Shown here: in pieces, positions 18,917-34,927 of the stretch | How positions within the stretch are numbered: position 1 is the first letter of the stretch | How the letters are laid out: every line of letters starts with the position of its first letter | Source of the DNA: a virus | Strand: one strand, 5' to 3' | Length of the DNA stretch: 35,921 bases | IMG/VR virus record: IMGVR_UViG_3300024308_000296 | Span: 1-35,921 of that record | Position numbers and translations under genes: made by a program | Notes under the pieces: generated by a model | The model's input: only the letters and a program-made list of their open reading frames with translations | Database searches by the model: none | Told to the model about the DNA's origin: nothing

Positions 18917-19482
18917 TCGAGATGCGCCCCCAGCTGGACATCCAGGCGCTCACCGAATGTATGCGCCATACTTTCCAGCAGCGCCCGCATCTCGCGTTCG
19001 ATCACGTCCTCGCACTCCTCGGCGGTGCCCAACGGCGCCACGTCTGCGGCGATCCGGCGCGCGCAGTTCATCAGCCCATCGCGCAGTGCGCGCGCTGCCT
19101 CGAAGATGGTCGAGTCGACGTCCGACTTGAGCAAGAACTGGCCGGCCATCTCGGCCAGCTTGATCTCGGCGGAAGCAGCCTCCGCCGCCTCCCGACGCGC
19201 GCGGCTCGAATCGTAGCTGGGAGTCTTCGCCGGCTTGACCTCGGACTCCGCACCTCCCGCACCCGCCGGGGCGGACGGCTGCGCCTCATTTGCCGTGTGG
19301 GCAGGTCGCTGGGCATTCGCGCGCGGGCGGGTGTTCTTCTGGTACAGGTGAGTCGCGTAATCGGGGTCCACCTTCTTATCGGTGACCGGAATCCCGCACC
19401 TGGTCACCGCGTCGTACGCGGACTGGCGCGAGATGCCCACCAGCTTGGCCCACTCGGCGATGGTTGTCAGGTTTTGCGTCAT
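18913..19482 (-). CDS. terminase small subunit (Nu1-like)
   Basis: A 189-residue protein. Residues 5-32 (TTIAEWAKLVGISRQSAYDA) form a winged-helix/HTH typical of Nu1-like small terminases that bind cosB. Residues about 50-90 are a Pro/Ala linker and the rest is helical and acidic, suited to contact with the large subunit. It is followed directly by TerL with an ATGA overlap. Three TTGTCAGG repeats begin inside its 5' end and extend upstream. Confidence 0.85.
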   Translation of the reverse strand: MTQNLTTIAEWAKLVGISRQSAYDAVTRCGIPVTDKKVDPDYATHLYQKNTRPRANAQRPAHTANEAQPSAPAGAGGAESEVKPAKTPSYDSSRARREAAEAASAEIKLAEMAGQFLLKSDVDSTIFEAARALRDGLMNCARRIAADVAPLGTAEECEDVIEREMRALLESMAHTFGERLDVQLGAHLE

Positions 19483-23375: not shown

Positions 23376-23457
23376 GACGGCTTTCGGGAGGGTGTGCTCG
23401 CAAGCATGAGAAAATTGAAACTCATCACTTCTCAACCCCTGCACGCATGGAGCACAC

Positions 23458-23721
23458 GTGACTGAAACTATGAATGAAATCCGAGAACGCGCCCACAAGG
23501 CGCATGCCGGCTTGGACTATGCCCTTGAGGTTTTTGGTGACGACCTCTCGCGGCGAGAGGGATATCATGGCCTCGATGGCATGGATGCTATCCACTTTTA
23601 TTTGGTGCATAAATTTCACTGGCTACCCCGAGATGTCAGGCAAATGAGCACGGACGAGATTCGCTTCGTGTTATCTCAAGAGCTAAAAGGCTGGACTCTG
23701 CCCTCAGCAGCTCGCCGCTAA
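23458..23721 (+). CDS. small plus-strand protein of unknown function (87 aa)
   Basis: An 87-residue frame starting at GTG (23458), five bases after GGAG; an in-frame ATG follows at 23470. The protein is mostly helical with Trp and His (YLVHKFHWLPRDVRQMS). The DNA is visibly richer in A/T than its neighbours and the frame is antisense to the leftward early operon, both marks of a late-acquired, independently expressed gene. It is followed by a 9-bp hairpin (23731-23754). No family recognised. Confidence 0.55.
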   Translation: MTETMNEIRERAHKAHAGLDYALEVFGDDLSRREGYHGLDGMDAIHFYLVHKFHWLPRDVRQMSTDEIRFVLSQELKGWTLPSAARR

Positions 23722-23824
23722 GCTCAGCAATGCAGCCGCCTGCAAGCGGCTGCAGTTGACGAAGTTTGAGCAACGCCAGTCGCGCTTTCTTTTCGTCGAG
23801 CGCGAAATCATTCATCGACTTCAT
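23636..23824 (-). CDS. possible small leftward-operon protein (62 aa)
   Basis: A 62-residue frame whose ATG overlaps the stop of the CII-like gene (ATGA) and is preceded by GGAGG. The first 25 residues (MKSMNDFALDEKKARLALLK) look protein-like; the rest is less convincing. It overlaps the 3' end of the plus-strand 87-residue gene by 86 bases, so at least one of the two may be shorter or not translated. Function unknown. Confidence 0.4.
   Translation of the reverse strand: MKSMNDFALDEKKARLALLKLRQLQPLAGGCIAELSGELLRAESSLLALEITRSESRPCSFA
23731..23754. terminator. strong hairpin without U-tract
   Basis: TGCAGCCGC and GCGGCTGCA form a perfect 9-bp stem around a 6-base loop, ten bases after the stop of the plus-strand 87-residue gene. 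No run of T follows on either strand, so it may stabilise a 3' end or pause polymerase and is not a textbook terminator. Confidence 0.35.
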
Positions 23825-24270
23825 TTCTCCTCCCTAGGCCGGCAGTAGATCTGGAACATCAGGGCCATCAGCTCCTGGGTGGTCTTGTGCATTTGCTGGC
23901 CGATCTCCTGGAGGTCTTCGCGCTCGCGGCGGTCGATCTCTCCATCGGCGACGGCGGCCGTGTAGGTAGCCGACAGGCGACCCAGCTCGACATACAGCTC
24001 ATGGAACTTAGCTTGCAGCTCTTCGCCACTCACTCCCTCGCCTTCAGGCAGCTGGACGAACACGCCACCGCTTGCAGCCGCGACCGCCTGGGCAAAATGC
24101 GTCGTGCCGGCGTAGGTCTGGATCAGAAGCGCGGTGTCCACGCGCATACCCTGGCCCTTGACCTCGTACACACGCGCTTCAAGGGCAGTCTTGGTCAATC
24201 CGAGCGTCCCAGCGGTGCCGTTCCACCCGTGCACCTTGATCATTTCTTGGTAAGCGGACAATAAATCCAC
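23821..24270 (-). CDS. phage regulatory protein, CII/YmfL-like
   Basis: A protein of about 149 residues that begins V(M)DLLSAYQEMIKVHGWNG and continues TLGLTKTALEARVYEVKGQG, the pattern of the phage regulatory CII (YmfL) family: an N-terminal helical DNA-binding region followed by a helical C-terminus (ELYVELGRLSATY, REDLQEIGQQMHK). The GTG at 24270 is chosen because AAGGA lies six bases upstream; the ATG at 24285 has AAGGA directly against it. It follows cro in the leftward operon, as CII-type regulators do, and probably influences the lysis-lysogeny choice or replication genes downstream. Confidence 0.72.
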   Translation of the reverse strand: MDLLSAYQEMIKVHGWNGTAGTLGLTKTALEARVYEVKGQGMRVDTALLIQTYAGTTHFAQAVAAASGGVFVQLPEGEGVSGEELQAKFHELYVELGRLSATYTAAVADGEIDRREREDLQEIGQQMHKTTQELMALMFQIYCRPREEK

Positions 24271-24315
24271 GATGTTTCCTTCCATTCCTTGGGTGTTGCG
24301 ATCCGATCAAGATGG

Positions 24316-24333
24316 GTAACCTTATGCAACCTT
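24316..24333 (-). promoter_or_regulatory. direct repeat AAGGTT, period 10, upstream of the CII-like gene
   Basis: The minus strand carries AAGGTT twice, exactly one helical turn apart (24333-24328 and 24323-24318), about 45 bases before the CII-like start. CII-type activators bind direct repeats on one DNA face, so an autoregulatory site is possible. Short and unproven. Confidence 0.3.
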
Positions 24334-24351
24334 GCTAACAGAAAATTTCCT

Positions 24352-24546
24352 ATGTGCAACTCAAAAATCGAGCGAAAGTTCCACGTCCACGTTGGGGATG
24401 ACGCTTTAGCTTTCGAATTAACCGTGCATGTTCAGAAGGGACCGCTGGTGATGCTCCGGGCTCATCTCACACCGAGCGGCATCGTGTGGAGCTATGAGCT
24501 CGGTTCCACGCTCAACTCAGGACCAGGTTCCGTCGCGACTCCATGA
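24352..24546 (+). CDS. doubtful small plus-strand protein (64 aa)
   Basis: A 64-residue frame (MCNSKIERKFHVHVGDDALA...) in the gap between cro and the CII-like gene, antisense to leftward transcription and overlapping the 3' end of cro by 55 bases. The alternating FHVHV, FELTVHV and MLRAHLTPSG pattern looks like a small beta-protein, but there is no ribosome-binding site before the ATG and no promoter seen. The gap otherwise holds only the AAGGTT repeats. Confidence 0.35.
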   Translation: MCNSKIERKFHVHVGDDALAFELTVHVQKGPLVMLRAHLTPSGIVWSYELGSTLNSGPGSVATP

Positions 24547-24719
24547 AGACGCGCGAGTTGCTGTAAGCCGCTGACGACCGCATAGGACGGGCGCTTGATT
24601 CCAGCTTTGCCCGCTTCCATGTCGCTAATCGACGTTTGCTTGAGGCCCACCGCGCTACCGATTTGCGCTTGGGTCAACCCGGCCTTCCGAAGGCCCGAAA
24701 TCGTATGAGGAATGTCCAT
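24492..24719 (-). CDS. cro: Cro-like HTH repressor
   Basis: A 75-residue XRE-type helix-turn-helix protein (MDIPHTISGLRKAGLTQAQIG, then VGLKQTSISDMEAGKAG). It is divergent from the CI-type repressor and shares the same recognition-helix pattern (LKQ-T/S-x-ISD-L/M-E), so both should bind the same operators. ATG at 24719 is chosen because the predicted transcription start is about 24719-24720; the ATG three codons upstream (24728) lies within the -10 element. The mRNA is thus predicted to be leaderless. It would repress cI and head the leftward operon. Confidence 0.82.
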   Translation of the reverse strand: MDIPHTISGLRKAGLTQAQIGSAVGLKQTSISDMEAGKAGIKRPSYAVVSGLQQLARLHGVATEPGPELSVEPSS

Positions 24720-24726
24720 GTCGAAC

Positions 24727-24755
24727 ATTATGGGAACTCCGGTATTTGCTGTCAA
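24727..24755 (-). promoter_or_regulatory. leftward early promoter (P-cro)
   Basis: Minus strand TTGACA (24755-24750), 17 bases, CATAAT (24732-24727): a near-consensus sigma-70 promoter. Operator O1 occupies the spacer and O2 abuts the -35 element, so bound repressor would block it. The start point falls at about 24720, at the cro ATG. Confidence 0.85.
24731..24746 (-). promoter_or_regulatory. repressor operator O1
   Basis: Minus strand AATACCGGAGTTCCCA, inside the P-cro spacer and -10. It matches O5 (26119-26134) at 13 of 16 positions. Confidence 0.7.
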
Positions 24756-24769
24756 CCGGAATTCCGGTT
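24754..24769. promoter_or_regulatory. repressor operator O2, perfect 16-bp palindrome
   Basis: AACCGGAATTCCGGTT, identical to its own reverse complement, between the divergent cI and cro genes. It matches O4 (26096-26111) at 14 of 16 positions and overlaps the -35 regions of both divergent promoters. Confidence 0.85.
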
Positions 24770-24780
24770 TAGTGCTGTTG

Positions 24781-24786
24781 GATAAT
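24781..24786 (+). promoter_or_regulatory. -10 element of the repressor maintenance promoter
   Basis: GATAAT seven bases before the repressor ATG at 24793, with no good -35 (the region 17 bases upstream lies in O2). A weak promoter that needs activation by repressor at O2 would fit lambda PRM logic. The start point would be the A of the ATG, giving a leaderless message. Confidence 0.5.
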
Positions 24787-24801
24787 ATCGGTATGTCGAT
24801 A
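24786..24801. promoter_or_regulatory. possible repressor operator O3 over the cI start
   Basis: TATCGGTATGTCGATA, a dyad with TATCG/CGATA arms spanning the cI start codon. It matches O4 at about 10 of 16 positions, so it is a weak candidate for Cro binding or negative autoregulation. Confidence 0.35.
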
Positions 24802-25506
24802 GGAGCCAGAGTAAAGCAGGCCCGCAAGGCAGCTGGTATGACTCAAATTGAGTTGGCAGCACGTGCCGGGCTGAAGCAAAGCACCATTTCCGATCTTGAG
24901 GTTGGGAAGTCACAAGGGACAACAAACGTTGCGTCTCTTGCCGCTGCTATGGCAGTGAATCCTCTCTGGCTTGAGACCGGCAAAGGCTCGATGTCGCCAA
25001 GCCAGGCCCCAAGCTCAGCACCTGACTCCGACGACAGTCCGTTCATGAAAAGCGCGGTGGCGATTCGCATCGGTGACGAACCGCAAACCGTACCGATTCG
25101 CAAGGTGAAGTTGCGATTGCGCGCGGGCGTAGCTGGCTATGAAACCGAGCCGGTGCTGGAAGATGGCGGCGTACTTCACATGCCCCTCTCCCTAATCGAA
25201 GCGCATCAGCTGATCCCTCACCAGCTTCTTGCGATGTACGTGAAGGGGTGCAGTATGGAGCCGATGCTGTTCGAGGATGACCTAGTCGTTATCAACACTG
25301 CCGATAAGACACCGCGCAACCGCGAGCTCTATGCAGTAAATTTCGACGGCGAAGCGTGTATCAAGCAGTTGATACATAAGGCCGGGCAGTGGTATCTGCA
25401 CTCACTGAATCCTGATTTCGGGCCACTGAACGTGCGTAGCGGTCAATGCGACATCGTTGGCCGCGTGGTATACCAACCTGGCCGTATGGTGACTGGTCGT
25501 CTGTAA
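24793..25506 (+). CDS. cI: CI-type phage repressor with S24 peptidase domain
   Basis: A 237-residue repressor. Residues 1-60 are an XRE helix-turn-helix (MSIGARVKQARKAAGMTQIE, LKQSTISDLEVGKSQG). Residues 60-110 are a linker. The S24/LexA-like autoprotease has Ser154 (GCSMEP) and Lys191 (ACIKQL) as the likely catalytic pair, and a probable Ala-Gly cleavage site at 114-115 (GVAGYE) or 111-112. RecA-stimulated self-cleavage would trigger induction. The ATG at 24793 is chosen over the longer frame because the HTH begins there and the -10 element lies just upstream. It is followed after 27 bases by the zinc-ribbon gene. Confidence 0.93.
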   Translation: MSIGARVKQARKAAGMTQIELAARAGLKQSTISDLEVGKSQGTTNVASLAAAMAVNPLWLETGKGSMSPSQAPSSAPDSDDSPFMKSAVAIRIGDEPQTVPIRKVKLRLRAGVAGYETEPVLEDGGVLHMPLSLIEAHQLIPHQLLAMYVKGCSMEPMLFEDDLVVINTADKTPRNRELYAVNFDGEACIKQLIHKAGQWYLHSLNPDFGPLNVRSGQCDIVGRVVYQPGRMVTGRL

Positions 25507-25533
25507 CCGGCCGCAAATCGCATAGGGGAATAC

Positions 25534-26043
25534 ATGGCGTTGAAGCCCTGCAGGGAATGCGGAGCGAAAATTAGCACCGAAGCAGCGGCATGTCCGCAGT
25601 GTGGCGCGCGGCCGAAGAAGTCGATGGGGCCAGTCGGCCGACTTCTTCTCGGATTCATCGTATTGGCGGTCGTGATACGAGTCTTCTCCCCAGGCTCAAC
25701 ATCCAGTGTCACCCCCGAGACACCGAAGCCGGTCAGAACACCGGAACAGATCGCCGCTGAGAAAGCGAAGGAGGCGCGGTTCCAACGCACTCTCGTAGTC
25801 GTGAAAACCATCAAGGAGTCGTTGCGCGATCCAGAGTCGGTCAAATGGCGAAATATTCTCTCCAATGAAGATGCGAGCGTCGTCTGCGTCGAGTACCGCG
25901 CCCGCAATGGCTTTGGTGGCGTGAACCTTGATCATGTTGTGTACGCCAAACAACAGCTCAGTACCACGAATGCCAGCTGGAATCGCTACTGCGCAAAAAA
26001 GGAACTGTACGACATGCAGCTAGTGGGCAAGGTCGTAACCTGA
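25534..26043 (+). CDS. zinc-ribbon membrane protein, lysogeny-expressed
   Basis: A 169-residue protein. A CxxC pair at C6/C9 and another at C20/C23 form a zinc ribbon. Residues 33-50 (VGRLLLGFIVLAVVIRVF) are one transmembrane helix. The rest should lie across the membrane: a charged helix (QIAAEKAKEARFQRTL) and a small domain with DPESVKWRNI and VEYRARNGFGGV, a combination seen in many small zinc-ribbon proteins. A good GGGGA precedes the ATG. Lying behind cI and before a terminator, it is probably transcribed in lysogens, so superinfection exclusion or host conversion is a reasonable guess; function is not shown. Confidence 0.75.
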   Translation: MALKPCRECGAKISTEAAACPQCGARPKKSMGPVGRLLLGFIVLAVVIRVFSPGSTSSVTPETPKPVRTPEQIAAEKAKEARFQRTLVVVKTIKESLRDPESVKWRNILSNEDASVVCVEYRARNGFGGVNLDHVVYAKQQLSTTNASWNRYCAKKELYDMQLVGKVVT

Positions 26044-26059
26044 TTTCCATCTAGAACTA

Positions 26060-26085
26060 GCTCCGTTACCGTGGAGCCATTTTTT
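26060..26085 (+). terminator. Rho-independent terminator after the lysogeny operon
   Basis: GCTCC (26060-26064) and GGAGC (26073-26077) form a short stem, followed after CA by six T. It ends the cI-zinc-ribbon operon just before the next promoter. The stem is only five pairs, so efficiency may be modest. Confidence 0.5.
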
Positions 26086-26095
26086 GATCGAAAAA

Positions 26096-26111
26096 TACCG
26101 GAATACCGGTT
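26096..26111. promoter_or_regulatory. repressor operator O4
   Basis: TACCGGAATACCGGTT, a near-perfect dyad matching O2 at 14 of 16 positions and ending at the first bases of the -35 element of the rightward promoter, exactly as O2 does for P-cro. Confidence 0.8.
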
Positions 26112-26138
26112 GACTTGAGATACCGGAACTCCCATAAT
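26110..26138 (+). promoter_or_regulatory. rightward early promoter
   Basis: TTGACT (26110-26115), 17 bases, CATAAT (26133-26138). It is a near-copy of P-cro including the operator inside the spacer and the flanking CCGG. It should drive the operon from 26166 to the integrase and be silenced by CI in a lysogen. The start point is predicted near 26145. Confidence 0.85.
26119..26134 (+). promoter_or_regulatory. repressor operator O5
   Basis: GATACCGGAACTCCCA within the spacer and -10 of the rightward promoter; the counterpart of O1. Confidence 0.7.
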
Positions 26139-26165
26139 TGCTCCATCACCCCTGATGGAGCGCAC

Positions 26166-26315
26166 ATGAACACCTACCGCGTCGTTGTCCGAACTGCCCT
26201 CGCAGCCTACGTCCGCAACATCCCAGCTGACTCGACCGCAGAGGCGGCAGAGGTCGCCGCAACTCAGTTTGCGCGGGTCGCGTGCGGCATCACCGTCAAG
26301 GGCAAGGTGCTCTGA
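26166..26315 (+). CDS. small first protein of the rightward operon (49 aa)
   Basis: A 49-residue protein (MNTYRVVVRTALAAYVRNIP...). GGAG lies seven bases before the ATG, about 21 bases after the predicted transcription start. The frame upstream of this ATG would start before the promoter, so it is not used. It ends in TGATG overlap with the next gene. The first gene after an early promoter is often a host-takeover or anti-restriction protein; nothing in the sequence shows which. Confidence 0.65.
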   Translation: MNTYRVVVRTALAAYVRNIPADSTAEAAEVAATQFARVACGITVKGKVL

Positions 26316-26761
26316 TGACCACTATCACGCAAGCAGCTTCGCCACTGGCTGACGCGATCAAGGCAGCGACCCAGTTCAAGCTCCTGTTGGATGTGCAGCC
26401 CGCCGGCGCACTTTTCAATCCATGCGGCAGCGGTGACGCACGCGAAAGCGTGTGCTATGCCCTGGCGTCGCTTTCACTCGCTCAAGCCACCTTGGCGGAA
26501 AAGGCCTCCAGCGGAGCTTTGACCCACGGGCATGACCAGGTAGATCTTTTGATGGAAGTCGCCTTCGGGCCCGACCGGATTCGCGAGAAGCGCAGCACCG
26601 CCTACATGGAGGGCGCCCGGTCATACCTAGAGCTTTGCGTGACTGGAGCCGAGATGCCGTGCAAGTACGGCACTGGCACGGCTGAGTTCGATGCCTACTT
26701 CGCTGGCCTGGACGAAGGCCGCGAAATCTGGCGCTCGCAGATGCGCAAGGAGCCAGCGTGA
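26315..26761 (+). CDS. phage protein of unknown function (148 aa)
   Basis: A 148-residue, mainly helical soluble protein (MTTITQAASPLADAIKAATQ...). The ATG at 26315 overlaps the previous stop by one base. The C-terminus (AEFDAYFAGLDEGREIWRSQ) has the feel of a small accessory early protein. Contains four Cys but no clear zinc motif. No family recognised. Confidence 0.6.
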   Translation: MTTITQAASPLADAIKAATQFKLLLDVQPAGALFNPCGSGDARESVCYALASLSLAQATLAEKASSGALTHGHDQVDLLMEVAFGPDRIREKRSTAYMEGARSYLELCVTGAEMPCKYGTGTAEFDAYFAGLDEGREIWRSQMRKEPA

Positions 26762-27009
26762 CTGTCACCGCCCTTCGCTCCGCTATCGCGCGCTGCGCCA
26801 TGCAGGCTAGCGCCGATGCGCCGGCCAATGCCGATGTTCGCCTGGCTGCATTCGTCGCACGCCTGTCCGGCTGCATGGAATCGCTCGGCGACCACGAACT
26901 GGACGCCATGCTCTGGGGCCTGTTCGACATGCCGGCCCCGCCGCTACCGAGCATCGCATCTGTGCAGAACCCGATACCGATGCCGAGTCCAGCACGGGTT
27001 TGGGGCTAA
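26758..27009 (+). CDS. phage protein of unknown function (83 aa)
   Basis: An 83-residue protein starting at GTG, overlapping the preceding stop as GTGA. The first 55 residues are helical (ALRSAIARCAMQASADAPAN, DHELDAMLWGLFDMP), the end is Pro-rich. No family recognised. Tight coupling to its neighbours supports translation. Confidence 0.5.
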   Translation: MTVTALRSAIARCAMQASADAPANADVRLAAFVARLSGCMESLGDHELDAMLWGLFDMPAPPLPSIASVQNPIPMPSPARVWG

Positions 27010-27011
27010 CA

Positions 27012-27110
27012 ATGGGCTTCCTCGCTCTATACCGCTACTACCGCTTCATCGGCAAGCCGATGCTGCAGGCCGCGCGTCTCGCACGCACCCACCGGATGCC
27101 GCGGCGGTAG
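27012..27110 (+). CDS. tiny basic protein (32 aa)
   Basis: A 32-residue frame (MGFLALYRYYRFIGKPMLQA...HRMPRR) filling the exact gap between two genes, two bases after the previous stop and two before the next start. Tyr-rich amphipathic N-terminus and a basic tail would suit a membrane-associated peptide. The gap-filling is the only support. Confidence 0.4.
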   Translation: MGFLALYRYYRFIGKPMLQAARLARTHRMPRR

Positions 27111-27112
27111 CC

Positions 27113-27301
27113 ATGCAACGCATCTCGCCAGACCGCGCCGCCCTCGAAGTTGCGCACCGCGCGCTCCGCACGGACGCCCGACTGGACGAAATGCTCGAAC
27201 ACCCGGCCCTCAAGATCATCTTGGAGGCCGTCGCCCGCCGGCACATGCAGCGCCGCGCGCGGATCGACGTGAAGATGCTGCAGGCCAACGACCACGATTG
27301 A
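27113..27301 (+). CDS. small helical phage protein (62 aa)
   Basis: A 62-residue basic helical protein (MQRISPDRAALEVAHRALRT..., ending RRHMQRRARIDVKMLQANDHD). Arg-rich second half could bind nucleic acid, but no motif is seen. It sits between the tiny gene and the ParB-like gene in the same operon. Confidence 0.5.
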   Translation: MQRISPDRAALEVAHRALRTDARLDEMLEHPALKIILEAVARRHMQRRARIDVKMLQANDHD

Positions 27302-27308
27302 CCATCCG

Positions 27309-28196
27309 ATGACAACAACAAACAGCCTCACTCCGAAGACCGACTTCGTCTCACTGAAAGTCGCCGCCGAGGACAAGAACAACCCGACCGTCTCGAAGGT
27401 GACGGCGTTCGCGGTCGACCCGCGCGTGCTGGAGGTCGAGGAAGGCTTCAATGCGCGCCCACTGAACACGGACCACGTGAACGAGATGGCCCTGGCCCAA
27501 CGCAATGGCGCCACCTTCCCTCCGCTCGAAGTACGCGTTGAGGACGGGCGCATCATCATCGTCGACGGACACCATCGCCACGCGGCGTCGCTGCAGAACA
27601 TCGCCGCCGGCTTCGACATCAAATCCTTGGACGTGCGCCACTTCCGCGGCAACGACGCCGACCGCGTGGCGCACATGATCACGAGCGCGAGCGGCTTGGC
27701 ACTCACGCCGCTGCAACTCGGCGTTCAATACCGCAAGCTGATCGGCTACGGCTGGACCGAGCCGCAGATCGCCAACCGCCGCGGGAAGTCCGTCCAGCAC
27801 GTCAAGGACATGATCCAGCTCGCCGAAGCGAACAGCGACGTGCACCAGGCCGTGAACGCCGGGCTCATCTCGGGCACCGCCGCGCTCAAGATGGTCAAGC
27901 AGCACGGCAGCCAGGCCGGCGCGGTCATCCAGGAGGGCCTGACGCAGGCGAAGGCCGAGGGAAAAGACAAAGTGACGCCGAAGGCGCTCGCGCGCACCAG
28001 GGCACCACGCAAGCCTACTGACAAGTTCATCGTCGCCTGGCTGGTCGCCAACGCGCGTGTCGCGAATATTCCAGCTGTCGCCGGCTATACGCACCGTACC
28101 CTCAGCCTGGCAATTTCCATCCCCAGTGAGGTCGCCGACAGCGACGACCTCTACACGCTGCTCGCGAACGCAGCTTCGTATAACACCACCACCTGA
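27309..28196 (+). CDS. ParB-like (ParB/sulfiredoxin superfamily) protein
   Basis: A 295-residue protein. Residues about 28-125 form a ParB N-terminal domain with the signature DGHHRHAA at 86-93; this fold binds CTP or cuts DNA in different families. Residues about 145-200 carry a ParB/KorB-type helix-turn-helix (YGWTEPQIANRRGKSVQHVK). No ParA partner or obvious parS set is visible, so plasmid-like partition is unlikely; phage proteins of this type are thought to regulate transcription or act as nucleases. The C-terminal 70 residues are a separate helical region. Confidence 0.78.
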   Translation: MTTTNSLTPKTDFVSLKVAAEDKNNPTVSKVTAFAVDPRVLEVEEGFNARPLNTDHVNEMALAQRNGATFPPLEVRVEDGRIIIVDGHHRHAASLQNIAAGFDIKSLDVRHFRGNDADRVAHMITSASGLALTPLQLGVQYRKLIGYGWTEPQIANRRGKSVQHVKDMIQLAEANSDVHQAVNAGLISGTAALKMVKQHGSQAGAVIQEGLTQAKAEGKDKVTPKALARTRAPRKPTDKFIVAWLVANARVANIPAVAGYTHRTLSLAISIPSEVADSDDLYTLLANAASYNTTT

Positions 28197-30066: not shown

Positions 30067-32346
30067 ATGAAGCGCGACCTCATCACCATGCAACTTGACC
30101 TCGGTCACGAACTCATCATCGACAACTTCGCCGGGGGTGGCGGGACCAGCACAGGCCTAGAAGCAGCGTTCGGCCGCCCGGTCGACATCGCGATCAACCA
30201 CGATCCAGAAGCGCTAGCCATGCACGCCATCAACCATCCGCACACGAAGCACCTGTGCGAGAGCGTTTGGGACATCGACCCGATCGAGGTGACCGGCAAC
30301 CAGCCGGTGGCCCTGGTGTGGCTGAGCCCCGACTGCAAGCACTTCAGCAAGGCCAAGGGCGGCAAGCCGGTCGAGAAGAAGATCCGCGGATTGGCCTGGG
30401 TGACGCTGCGCTGGGCTGCGAAGTGCAAGCCGCGTGTGATCATGCTCGAAAACGTGGAAGAGTTCAAAACGTGGGGCCCGCTGATCCAGGACGAGTATGG
30501 CCACTGGAAGCCGGACCCGACGAAACGCGGCAAGACGTTTGAGTCGTTTGTCCGCCAGCTGGAGGCCCACGGCTACAAGGTCGAGTACCGCGAGCTCCGT
30601 GCGTGCGATTACGACACCCCTACGATCCGCAAGCGATTTTTCCTGGTAGCGCGGCGCGACGGCCTGCCGATCCAGTGGCCGCTGCCGACCAATGGCGCGC
30701 CGGACTCGCCGGCCGTCCGCGCAGGCAAGCTGCAGCCGTACCGCACTGCGGCAGAATGCATCGACTGGTCGCTGGAGTGCCCGAGCATCTTCAGCCGCAA
30801 GCGCCCGCTGGCAGAGGCCACGCTGCGCCGCATCGCCAAGGGCATCATGCGCTACGTGGTCGACGCGGCCGATCCGTTCATCGTGGGTCAGGGCGGGCCG
30901 ATCTATGCCGGCAAGCCAGTCACCGCCAACCAGCCGATCGGCACCCTGACGACTGAGAACCACCGCGCCGTGGTCGTGCCGAGCATCGTCCCGGTCACGC
31001 ACCAGGGCGGCGACCGCAGCGAATCGGTGCACGAGCCGTTCCGCACGATCACCGGCGCGCAGCGCGGCGAGAAGGCGCTGGCCAGCGCAACCCTGCGCCC
31101 GTTCGTGATGACCAATACCACCGGTCACCTCGGCGCCGACGTCAATAGTCCGGTACCGACCATCACCTCAGCAGGCAACCAGGCGTTGGCCGTCGCGACC
31201 ATGGTGCAGACCGGATACGGCGAACGAAAGGCCGCCTGGCACTGTCGTCACTGCTCGGCTGAGTTCGACGTTGAGCCAACCTGCGGGTGCACTGCGTGCG
31301 GCCATGAGGATGACTTGGTGCGAACCGCCGCCCAGGCACCGCGCGCGCTGGACATCGAGAAGCCGCTCGGCACCGTAGTCGGCTCAACCAAGGCCGCCCT
31401 GGTGACCGCCTTCCTGAATGAGCACGCTAACGCCAGCAACCAGCGCGTGATGTCGGTCGACGCGCCGCTGCGCACGGTCTGTGCCCAGGTGAAGGGCGGG
31501 CACTTCGGCCTGGTCTCCGCTGCGCTGGTCGGCGTGGGCGGCCGCGCCGGCGACAGCCGCCCGCGCGGCGCCGACGAGCCTACGGCGACGATCACGGCCA
31601 AGGGTGACACCGCGGTGGTGACCGCGTTCATGGCCCAGCACAACAAGGAGCGCAGCGGCGTCAAGGCGGGCCGCCCGGCAGATGCGCCAATCTCGACCCT
31701 CACCGCGTCAGGGTCGCAGCAGTCCCTCGTGACAGCTCACCTGACCAAGTTCCGCACCGGCTCGACCGGCAGCGACCTAGCCGACCCGATGCCGACGATC
31801 ACGGCCGGCCCGAAAGAAAACCCAGCCGGCGCGCCGCACGCGCTGGGCCTGGTGTCGAGCAGTCTGGTCAAGCTGCGCGGGACGAGCACCGCGAACGGTG
31901 TCGACGAGCCGCTGCACACGATCAGCGCCGGCGGCCAGCATCATGCCGAGGTGCGCGCCTTCCTGTTGGCCTACTACGGGACGGACCAGGACCAGACGCC
32001 GGGCTCGCCGCTGGCGACCGTCACGAGCCGCGATCGGTTCGGCCTGGTCACGATCCACGGCCAGGACTACGAGATCGTCGATATCGGCCTGCGCATGCTG
32101 GCGCCGCACGAGCTGTACCGCGCCCAGGGCTTCCCGGCTGGCTACGTCATCGACGAAATCCCGAATCCGGAGCTGCTGTTCGTCGGTGGCGAGCAGGTCG
32201 ACGGTGACCCACTGGCGCTCCCGCGCATCCCGCTGACGAAGTCGGCCCAGGTGCGCATGTGCGGCAATAGCGTGTGCCCGCCGTTGTCGGAGGCGCTCAT
32301 CCGCGCGAACTTCGCGCACGAACAGTTGATGGCGAGGGCGGCATGA
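30067..32346 (+). CDS. C5 cytosine DNA methyltransferase with long repeat insertion
   Basis: A 759-residue methyltransferase. Motif I is DNFAGGGGTSTG (19-30); motif IV is SPDCKHFS with catalytic Cys90; motif VI is LENVEEF (128-133); motif VIII is TIRKRFFLVARR (186-197); motif X is GNSVCPPLSEALI (733-745). Between VIII and X, where C5 enzymes hold their target-recognition region, lie about ten 40-residue repeats (289-663) and a zinc-knuckle (C393, C396, C406, C408, C411). No restriction enzyme partner is encoded nearby, so it most likely protects phage DNA from host restriction or alters expression. It is about twice the length of a simple C5 enzyme. Confidence 0.92.
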   Translation: MKRDLITMQLDLGHELIIDNFAGGGGTSTGLEAAFGRPVDIAINHDPEALAMHAINHPHTKHLCESVWDIDPIEVTGNQPVALVWLSPDCKHFSKAKGGKPVEKKIRGLAWVTLRWAAKCKPRVIMLENVEEFKTWGPLIQDEYGHWKPDPTKRGKTFESFVRQLEAHGYKVEYRELRACDYDTPTIRKRFFLVARRDGLPIQWPLPTNGAPDSPAVRAGKLQPYRTAAECIDWSLECPSIFSRKRPLAEATLRRIAKGIMRYVVDAADPFIVGQGGPIYAGKPVTANQPIGTLTTENHRAVVVPSIVPVTHQGGDRSESVHEPFRTITGAQRGEKALASATLRPFVMTNTTGHLGADVNSPVPTITSAGNQALAVATMVQTGYGERKAAWHCRHCSAEFDVEPTCGCTACGHEDDLVRTAAQAPRALDIEKPLGTVVGSTKAALVTAFLNEHANASNQRVMSVDAPLRTVCAQVKGGHFGLVSAALVGVGGRAGDSRPRGADEPTATITAKGDTAVVTAFMAQHNKERSGVKAGRPADAPISTLTASGSQQSLVTAHLTKFRTGSTGSDLADPMPTITAGPKENPAGAPHALGLVSSSLVKLRGTSTANGVDEPLHTISAGGQHHAEVRAFLLAYYGTDQDQTPGSPLATVTSRDRFGLVTIHGQDYEIVDIGLRMLAPHELYRAQGFPAGYVIDEIPNPELLFVGGEQVDGDPLALPRIPLTKSAQVRMCGNSVCPPLSEALIRANFAHEQLMARAA
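30931..32055 (+). repeat. ten tandem repeat units in the methyltransferase target-recognition region
   Basis: Each unit has the core P-x-x-T-(I/L/V)-(T/S)-x, a Gly-rich turn, then A-L/V-V-T-A-F/L. Cores begin near residues 290, 324, 362, 433, 467, 505, 541, 574, 615 and 648. A zinc-knuckle interrupts the series after the third unit. Confidence 0.8.
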
Positions 32347-33612: not shown

Positions 33613-33830
33613 CCGCCGTCGAACTGGCCGAGCTGATCGGCTGCGCGACGACCAGCTTCGCGTGCATGCGCCGCTACCTGGAGCGCCACCAATGGCCCTT
33701 CGAACCCAACCTGCGGGGTTTCCCCCGCGTCAGCCGCGCGTATCATGACGCGCGTATGTGCGGCACCGCCGCGCCCGGCCTGACGCCAGTCGTCGACGTC
33801 GAGCCTGACTTCAGCATGTTTAAGCAATGA
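33594..33830 (+). CDS. DUF4224-like excisionase candidate
   Basis: A 78-residue protein starting at GTG with AAGGAG eight bases upstream. The sequence LTAVELAELIGCAT, then MRRYLERHQWPFEPNLRGFP followed by RVSRAY follows the DUF4224 pattern (LT-x-x-EL ... PF ... G-x-P-x-V-x-R), a small HTH protein usually encoded directly before phage integrases and believed to act as a directionality factor. It overlaps the integrase gene by an ATGA. Confidence 0.78.
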   Translation: MPTSYLTAVELAELIGCATTSFACMRRYLERHQWPFEPNLRGFPRVSRAYHDARMCGTAAPGLTPVVDVEPDFSMFKQ

Positions 33831-34927
33831 TCGGAAGAAGAAAATCACCGGATGGCATGCCGTTCCGCCTGTACGAGCGGATCGGCAAGTTCAAAGTCAG
33901 CTACGGCTACAAACTACCCGATGGAACATGGGCATTCCGCCTGACCGCGTCGGCAGACGATCCCGCCGCACGCGCAAGGATCCGCGCCGAAGCGATCGAC
34001 CGCGCCAACGAGCTCAACGGCGCTCCTATCGAAGGCGGCGAAACCGAGGCGCTATTCCGGCGCTACTTCGCTTGGCAGCGAGGCCTACCGTCCGAGAGCG
34101 AGGATCGCAAGGCCGACAGTACGCTTGACGAAAACGAGCACAATGAAGCAAAACGGATACTGAAGAGCTTCGGCAAGGTGAAGCCGGCATCAATCAAGCC
34201 CGTCCATATCTATAAATACCTGGACGGCCGGGCCGCTGAGGGCGCACCCGCCAAGGCGAATAAGGAAATCGCACTGCTCTCTGCCGTACTCGAATTCGGG
34301 CGCCGGAAGGGCGTGCTGGAGACGAACCCCTGCCGCGACATCAAGTACAACAAGACCAGGCCCGACACGCGCTACGTGACCCCGGCCGAGCTCGACCTGG
34401 TGGTGCGCGTGGCCCGGGAGCGCGGCGGCATGTACGTAGTAGCAGCGCTGTGCCTGCGCGCCGCCTACCTGACTGTCAGCCGCCCGGACGAGATGCGGAA
34501 GGTCATGCGCCAGGCGATTACGCCGAGCGGGATGGAAATGGCCGTGGGCAAGCGGAAGAAAGGCAGAGCCGAGCGCTTCAAGCTGATCGAATGGTCGACT
34601 GAGTTGCGAGCCGTGATCGACGAAGCCCTCGCCCTCCAGCGCACGACGAGCCTCTACGTGTTCGGCAACAGCGACGGACAGCCCTACACCACCAGCGGCT
34701 GGAACACGAACCTGCGCCGACTGATGGAACACGCCCGCAAAAAGGCCGAGGCCGAGGGCATCGAGTTCGCCAGGTTCACCCTGAAGGACATGCGCCCGGC
34801 GGCCGTCACGGACCGCGTTGACGACGGGGACGAGACAATCACCAACGCAACGGGGCATAGCAGCGATCGCATGGTTCGCCAGGTTTACGACCGCCGCAGG
34901 ACCAAGAAAGCCAGGGCGACCGAGTGA
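33827..34927 (+). CDS. int: phage tyrosine integrase
   Basis: A 366-residue tyrosine recombinase. Residues about 1-70 are the arm-binding domain, 75-170 the core-binding SAM-like domain, and 180-360 the catalytic domain. Likely catalytic residues are Arg219 (VSRPDE), Lys243 or a neighbour (GKRKKG), the K-D-M-R box at 320-323 where most enzymes have H-x-x-R, His344 (ATGHSS) and Tyr354 (VRQVYDRR). It lies 119 bases before the tRNA-His remnant that marks the phage-host junction, so it should integrate into tRNA-His. Early expression from the rightward promoter suits excision as well as integration. Confidence 0.93.
   Translation: MIGRRKSPDGMPFRLYERIGKFKVSYGYKLPDGTWAFRLTASADDPAARARIRAEAIDRANELNGAPIEGGETEALFRRYFAWQRGLPSESEDRKADSTLDENEHNEAKRILKSFGKVKPASIKPVHIYKYLDGRAAEGAPAKANKEIALLSAVLEFGRRKGVLETNPCRDIKYNKTRPDTRYVTPAELDLVVRVARERGGMYVVAALCLRAAYLTVSRPDEMRKVMRQAITPSGMEMAVGKRKKGRAERFKLIEWSTELRAVIDEALALQRTTSLYVFGNSDGQPYTTSGWNTNLRRLMEHARKKAEAEGIEFARFTLKDMRPAAVTDRVDDGDETITNATGHSSDRMVRQVYDRRRTKKARATE

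Follow-up and report, generated by a model that had tools for sequence, protein, structure and literature searches.

In bacteriophage lambda, PL and PR are repressed by CI, which binds OL and OR, and rexA and rexB adjoin cI on the PRM transcript (PMC11077077). In phage T4, a hairpin at the e, soc, 49 and I-TevI genes hides the Shine-Dalgarno (SD) sequence in long transcripts, and the RNA made from the adjacent upstream promoter is without the 5' arm of this hairpin (PMC3014915, PMC2988022). In Bacillus subtilis, a hairpin guards sigG against read-through transcription (PMC5942855). We have analysed a virus record of 35,921 bp with a G+C content of 63%, and this whole stretch of DNA is referred to as the window. 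We consider it very probable that the window carries an immunity region of the OR/PR plus OL/PL type, in which a CI-type repressor shuts two matched promoters, and that the two promoter modules are alike through following the specificity of this repressor.

Layout of the immunity region

The terminase, portal and primase genes of the window are read leftward, the immunity region with cI, cro and a CII-like gene lies at about 24-26 kb, and a rightward gene run leads to the integrase. On the left, the immunity region is flanked by cro and the CII-like, primase and terminase genes, and on the right by the integrase. The genes and the terminator relevant to this study are as follows.

23821-24285, minus strand: CII-like activator (Phage_CP76 domain match), next gene in the leftward lytic operon
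24492-24719, minus strand: cro-type regulator (HTH domain match)
24793-25506, plus strand: cI-type repressor (HTH_3 and Peptidase_S24 domain matches)
25534-26043, plus strand: zinc-ribbon, probably membrane protein, 3' of cI in the lambda rex position (hydrophobic segment judged by eye)
26060-26085, plus strand: predicted intrinsic terminator of the cI operon (prediction from sequence)
26166-26315, plus strand: first ORF of the rightward operon, 49 aa (ATG 5 nt past GGAG; overlaps the next ORF)
27309-28196, plus strand: ParB-like protein (domain match)
30067-32346, plus strand: C5-cytosine DNA methyltransferase (domain match)
33827-34927, plus strand: tyrosine integrase (domain match), at the far end of the rightward gene run

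The rightward genes would form one transcript. Its 49-aa first ORF matched nothing in Pfam or PHROGs, and no N-type antiterminator was recognised; the same ORF is retained across the immunity classes described below. The first-pass annotation had set this layout against that of lambda, on the ground that the second operator set lies here beyond a lysogeny gene and a terminator. This contrast is wrong, because the rex genes of lambda likewise adjoin cI and are transcribed with it from PRM, and both PL and PR are under CI control. Accordingly, the zinc-ribbon gene and the terminator between cI and the right module match the lambda layout.

In terms of origin, a blastn search with positions 23400-26800 gave no match among named phages. 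The best named relatives of CI were the repressors of Pseudomonas phages F10, D3 and PMG1, which belong to the same family and are distant (approximately 33% identity over 97%). Curvibacter phage PCA1, which gave the best ParB match, was rejected as a relative since its gene order is unrelated. Considering that Massilia is the nearest named host of a relative and that repressors of the CI family are present in 13 of 62 Massilia genomes, the host is likely to be Massilia-like.

The two promoter modules

The promoter and operator features of the two modules, the left one between cro and cI and the right one upstream of the rightward operon, are given below.

24727-24755, minus strand: PR-like cro promoter, TTGACA, 17 bp, CATAAT (sigma-70 match, 11/12)
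24730-24743, minus strand: operator-like site 1, left, ACCGGAGTTCCCAT, lying in the PR spacer and -10 (differs from the consensus at 3 positions; its type follows the repressor class)
24754-24769, no strand: operator-like site 2, left, a perfect 16-bp dyad, AACCGGAATTCCGGTT (overlaps the PR -35 and the expected PRM -35)
24781-24786, plus strand: -10 GATAAT of the PRM-like cI promoter (from the sequence; kept in relatives)
26097-26110, no strand: operator-like site 2, right, ACCGGAATACCGGT (motif match)
26110-26138, plus strand: PL-like promoter of the rightward operon, TTGACT, 17 bp, CATAAT (sigma-70 match, 10/12)
26122-26135, plus strand: operator-like site 1, right, ACCGGAACTCCCAT (motif match)

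The twin promoters are the only two sigma-70-type matches within 23800-27400 (3.6 kb), both spacers contain TACCGGA-NN-TCCC, and 37 of 47 letters are common to the left and right modules. When the region upstream of cI was compared with the 3.3 kb downstream, the best ungapped match was formed by the twin modules with a score of 28, against 11-12 for shuffled DNA, indicating that their likeness is not due to chance. The motif ACCGGAATTCCGGT, with at most three mismatches, is found at 24730, 24755, 26097 and 26122, with one stray occurrence at 19385 and a chance expectation of 1.4. The centres of sites 1 and 2 are 25.0 bp apart in both modules, and only two sites per module were found at this threshold, where lambda has three operators. 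The first-pass annotation was borne out in describing near-copy promoters, as regards their coordinates, their consensus matches and the motif common to their spacers. It had also described a full 16-bp dyad abutting each -35. On the one hand, the left dyad is perfect; on the other hand, the right dyad (26096-26111, TACCGGAATACCGGTT) is imperfect, with two of eight symmetric positions failing, and both dyads overlap the -35 by two bases.

The cI ATG at 24793, which is also the expected PRM start, and the cro ATG at 24719 each lie 7-8 nt past their own -10, and both mRNAs are therefore predicted to be leaderless. The leaderless arrangement of cI is retained in classes I-III. Considering that left site 2 (24754-24769) covers the expected PRM -35, we would expect CI at this site to repress PRM rather than activate it.

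We propose that the CI-type repressor would be made from the leaderless PRM transcript and would shut both the leftward cro promoter and the rightward integrase-methyltransferase promoter by binding a pair of sites at each. Both operons would start once CI is gone, which for an S24-type repressor is expected upon induction. The two modules would stay alike because both must track the specificity of the repressor as the repressor changes. CI and Cro binding, the order of occupancy and induction at both modules are what we infer for this region.

Operator types among related phages

Protein searches with CI and ParB gave approximately 90 loci, some of which are overlapping pieces of one contig. 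The twin module was present in 31 of the 45 CI-relative loci, with both promoters of the same type and with scores of 14-32 against a shuffled maximum of 13; in the other 14 loci no twin was matched, owing to contig ends, a different context or excessive divergence of the sites. At least eight operator types occur among the relatives, and each phage has its own type at both of its promoters. The CI relatives have the S24 domain in common and differ in the HTH, and the operators change with the HTH. Class I (the window and L003-L005) has the operator ACCGGAATTCCGGT, class II (L006 and L007) has ATCGGAATTCCGAT, and class III (L008-L011) has TTAAACATGGTGTTTAA. ACCGG is paired with the HTH sequence GLKQSTIS, ATCGG with GMAQASLS, and TTAAACATGGTGTTTAA with a third HTH. 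Further types are found in L066; in L071 and L084; in L076, L079, L080 and L092; in L081; in L085; and in L093. The twin module is repeated in three Massilia chromosomal prophages, one of which, L117, has a further operator type. In phages found through ParB, the right promoter has a TATTCATTCGCGTATAG-like operator type in L012, L016, L017, L022, L029 and L039, and a AATACGTATGTAATAAT-like type in L018, L019, L027 and L030.

The Cro proteins of class II (L006, 2673-2927; L007, 2694-2927) keep the class I recognition helix GLKQTSIS found in the Cro of the window (24492-24719). Since the operators and the CI helix of class II differ from those of class I while this Cro helix is kept, we consider that the operators follow CI and not Cro.

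The likeness of the modules is also stronger within than between phages. Identity at site 2 was 0.68 within a phage and 0.56 between phages, and identity at site 1 plus the -10 was 0.80 within and 0.64 between (permutation, n = 17, p = 1e-4 in both cases, these p-values being optimistic since related phages are treated as independent). In the 5-nt gap after TTGAC, between the -35 and site 1, identity was 34% both within and between phages.

These results bear on the origin of the likeness, which the first-pass annotation had ascribed to either duplication or selection. If the right module were a recent block copy of the left one, the likeness would be a relic of copying rather than of selection, and the agreement at 37 of 47 letters in the window would fit such a copy. 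However, a copied block should not leave the gap no more alike within phages than between them, and the twin state persists through the operator types of the relatives, both copies having switched together. Accordingly, we consider recent duplication highly improbable. Identity confined to the operator and promoter letters argues instead for selection by a shared repressor, and it is this half of the earlier explanation that is favoured. The co-variation of operator type at both promoters across the relatives strongly supports, at the level of sequence, the earlier proposal that one repressor governs both divergent operons.

The inverted repeat at the expected right start site

The right promoter is followed by one further element.

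26140-26161, plus strand: inverted repeat GCTCCATCA-CCCC-TGATGGAGC, straddling the expected start near 26145; its 3' arm holds the SD GGAG (26157-26160)

This repeat begins one base past the base following the -10, and GGAG serves the ATG at 26166. An expected sigma-70 start near 26145, approximately 7 nt past the -10, leaves the first five bases of the 5' arm untranscribed. An Rfam search of the window gave no match.

The arms vary among the relatives and mostly still pair, partly via G-U; examples are GCCTCATCA/TGATGAGGC in L015 and the Massilia prophage L111, CACTTCGTC/GATGGAGTG in L029, and GCGTTCTCT/AGGGAGCGC in L019 and L027. The base in the 5' arm facing a G of the 3' arm was C in 46 cases, T in 14 cases and never A or G, and 81.5% of the alignment cells were paired, compared with 33-52% with slid partners. 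Formal covariation in a MAFFT alignment was modest (both members had changed in 3 of 9 pairs, a level reached in 92 of 500 shuffles), partly because two rows were misaligned by one base. In relatives with longer leaders, a short arm just past the -10 often base-pairs with the SD, the two being separated by an inner hairpin, and the summed arm-SD pairing score was 264 against 173 ± 13 for shuffled arms. In several relatives (e.g., L055, L071, L080, L082, L089 and L093) the SD pairing was not significant. Three held-out Massilia leaders gave a joint p = 2e-4; two were individually significant and L112 was weak (p = 0.2).

In predicted folds, the SD of read-through RNA has a pairing probability of 1.0. 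With a start at 26145 the predicted SD pairing is weaker, whereas with a start at 26143 a 6-bp hairpin touching the SD remains; whether RNA begun at the promoter escapes SD pairing thus hinges on the start site. We consider that the hairpin probably keeps the rightward genes silent when upstream transcription leaks in, as these folds suggest. The source of read-through would be the cI-zinc-ribbon transcript running past the terminator. Most of the 5' arm would be discriminator DNA of the promoter itself, outside the transcript. Ribosomes would find the SD of the first ORF masked in read-through RNA and accessible in RNA begun at the CI-controlled promoter. This element would be a guard like that of T4 gene e within an immunity region, kept while the surrounding operators change specificity. 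The wider model, in which terminator and hairpin form two layers that insulate the PL-type promoter against leaking PRM transcription, with only the RNA of the CI-controlled promoter being well translated, has in our view about an even chance of being correct.

A perfect 22-bp dyad that is unique in the window could also be a DNA operator, and the rightward operon encodes a ParB-like protein that might bind it, in which case the right promoter would be mainly under a regulator other than CI. However, almost every difference between the arms reads as G-U on the RNA strand (curated arms gave 17 G-U and 1 A-C, a comparison biased because the SD constrains one arm), which a DNA dyad leaves unexplained. 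An uncurated count of 36 against 4 was dropped, since the constant outermost T-G position inflated it. In other relatives, moreover, the arms still pair although tens of bases and a second hairpin separate them, an arrangement ill-suited to a dimer operator. We therefore regard control mainly by another regulator as improbable. It is rather less doubtful, and still unlikely, that the hairpin forms within the promoter's own transcript, through a start upstream of 26142 or another upstream promoter, and acts as a general translation brake. The hairpin that would remain with a start at 26143 fits such a brake, but the usual sigma-70 start, 6-9 nt past the -10, falls at 26144-26147 and removes most of the 5' arm, and the stretch from the terminator to 26110 gave no further promoter match.

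Comparison with known systems

In summary, the twin promoters are a textbook lambda-like two-sided switch, and the earlier description of them is largely correct apart from its contrast with lambda. As in lambda, cI and cro are divergent, at least one additional gene transcribed in lysogeny follows cI before the second operator set, and this set lies at the promoter of the integrase-side operon. Unlike lambda, each module has two visible sites instead of three, cro as well as cI is predicted to be leaderless, and the rightward operon opens with the 49-aa ORF followed by the ParB-like and methyltransferase genes, with no N recognised. Three operators per region are a detail of lambda; two operators here bar the description as lambda-identical and do not bar CI-controlled dual operators. 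The relatives form a natural series in which operator class after class has been replaced at both promoters, and this series can serve to assign operators to repressor HTHs.

A hairpin working as predicted would account for the silence of the integrase operon in the lysogen despite terminator leakage, and would extend the read-through guard of T4 and B. subtilis sigG to the immunity regions of temperate phages. Our searches of open-licence papers gave no report of a read-through hairpin at a temperate-phage PL-type promoter, which is weak as evidence of absence. Davis, Simons and Kleckner are said to have described in 1985 that Tn10/IS10 is protected from transcription arriving from upstream; that element is a transposon and not a phage immunity region. 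Compared with the T4 hairpins, which belong to T4 late promoters, the predicted hairpin in the window would act at the PL-type promoter of a temperate phage, under CI repression. Compared with sigG, which is a sporulation gene and not part of a phage immunity region, the common point is insulation from upstream transcription.
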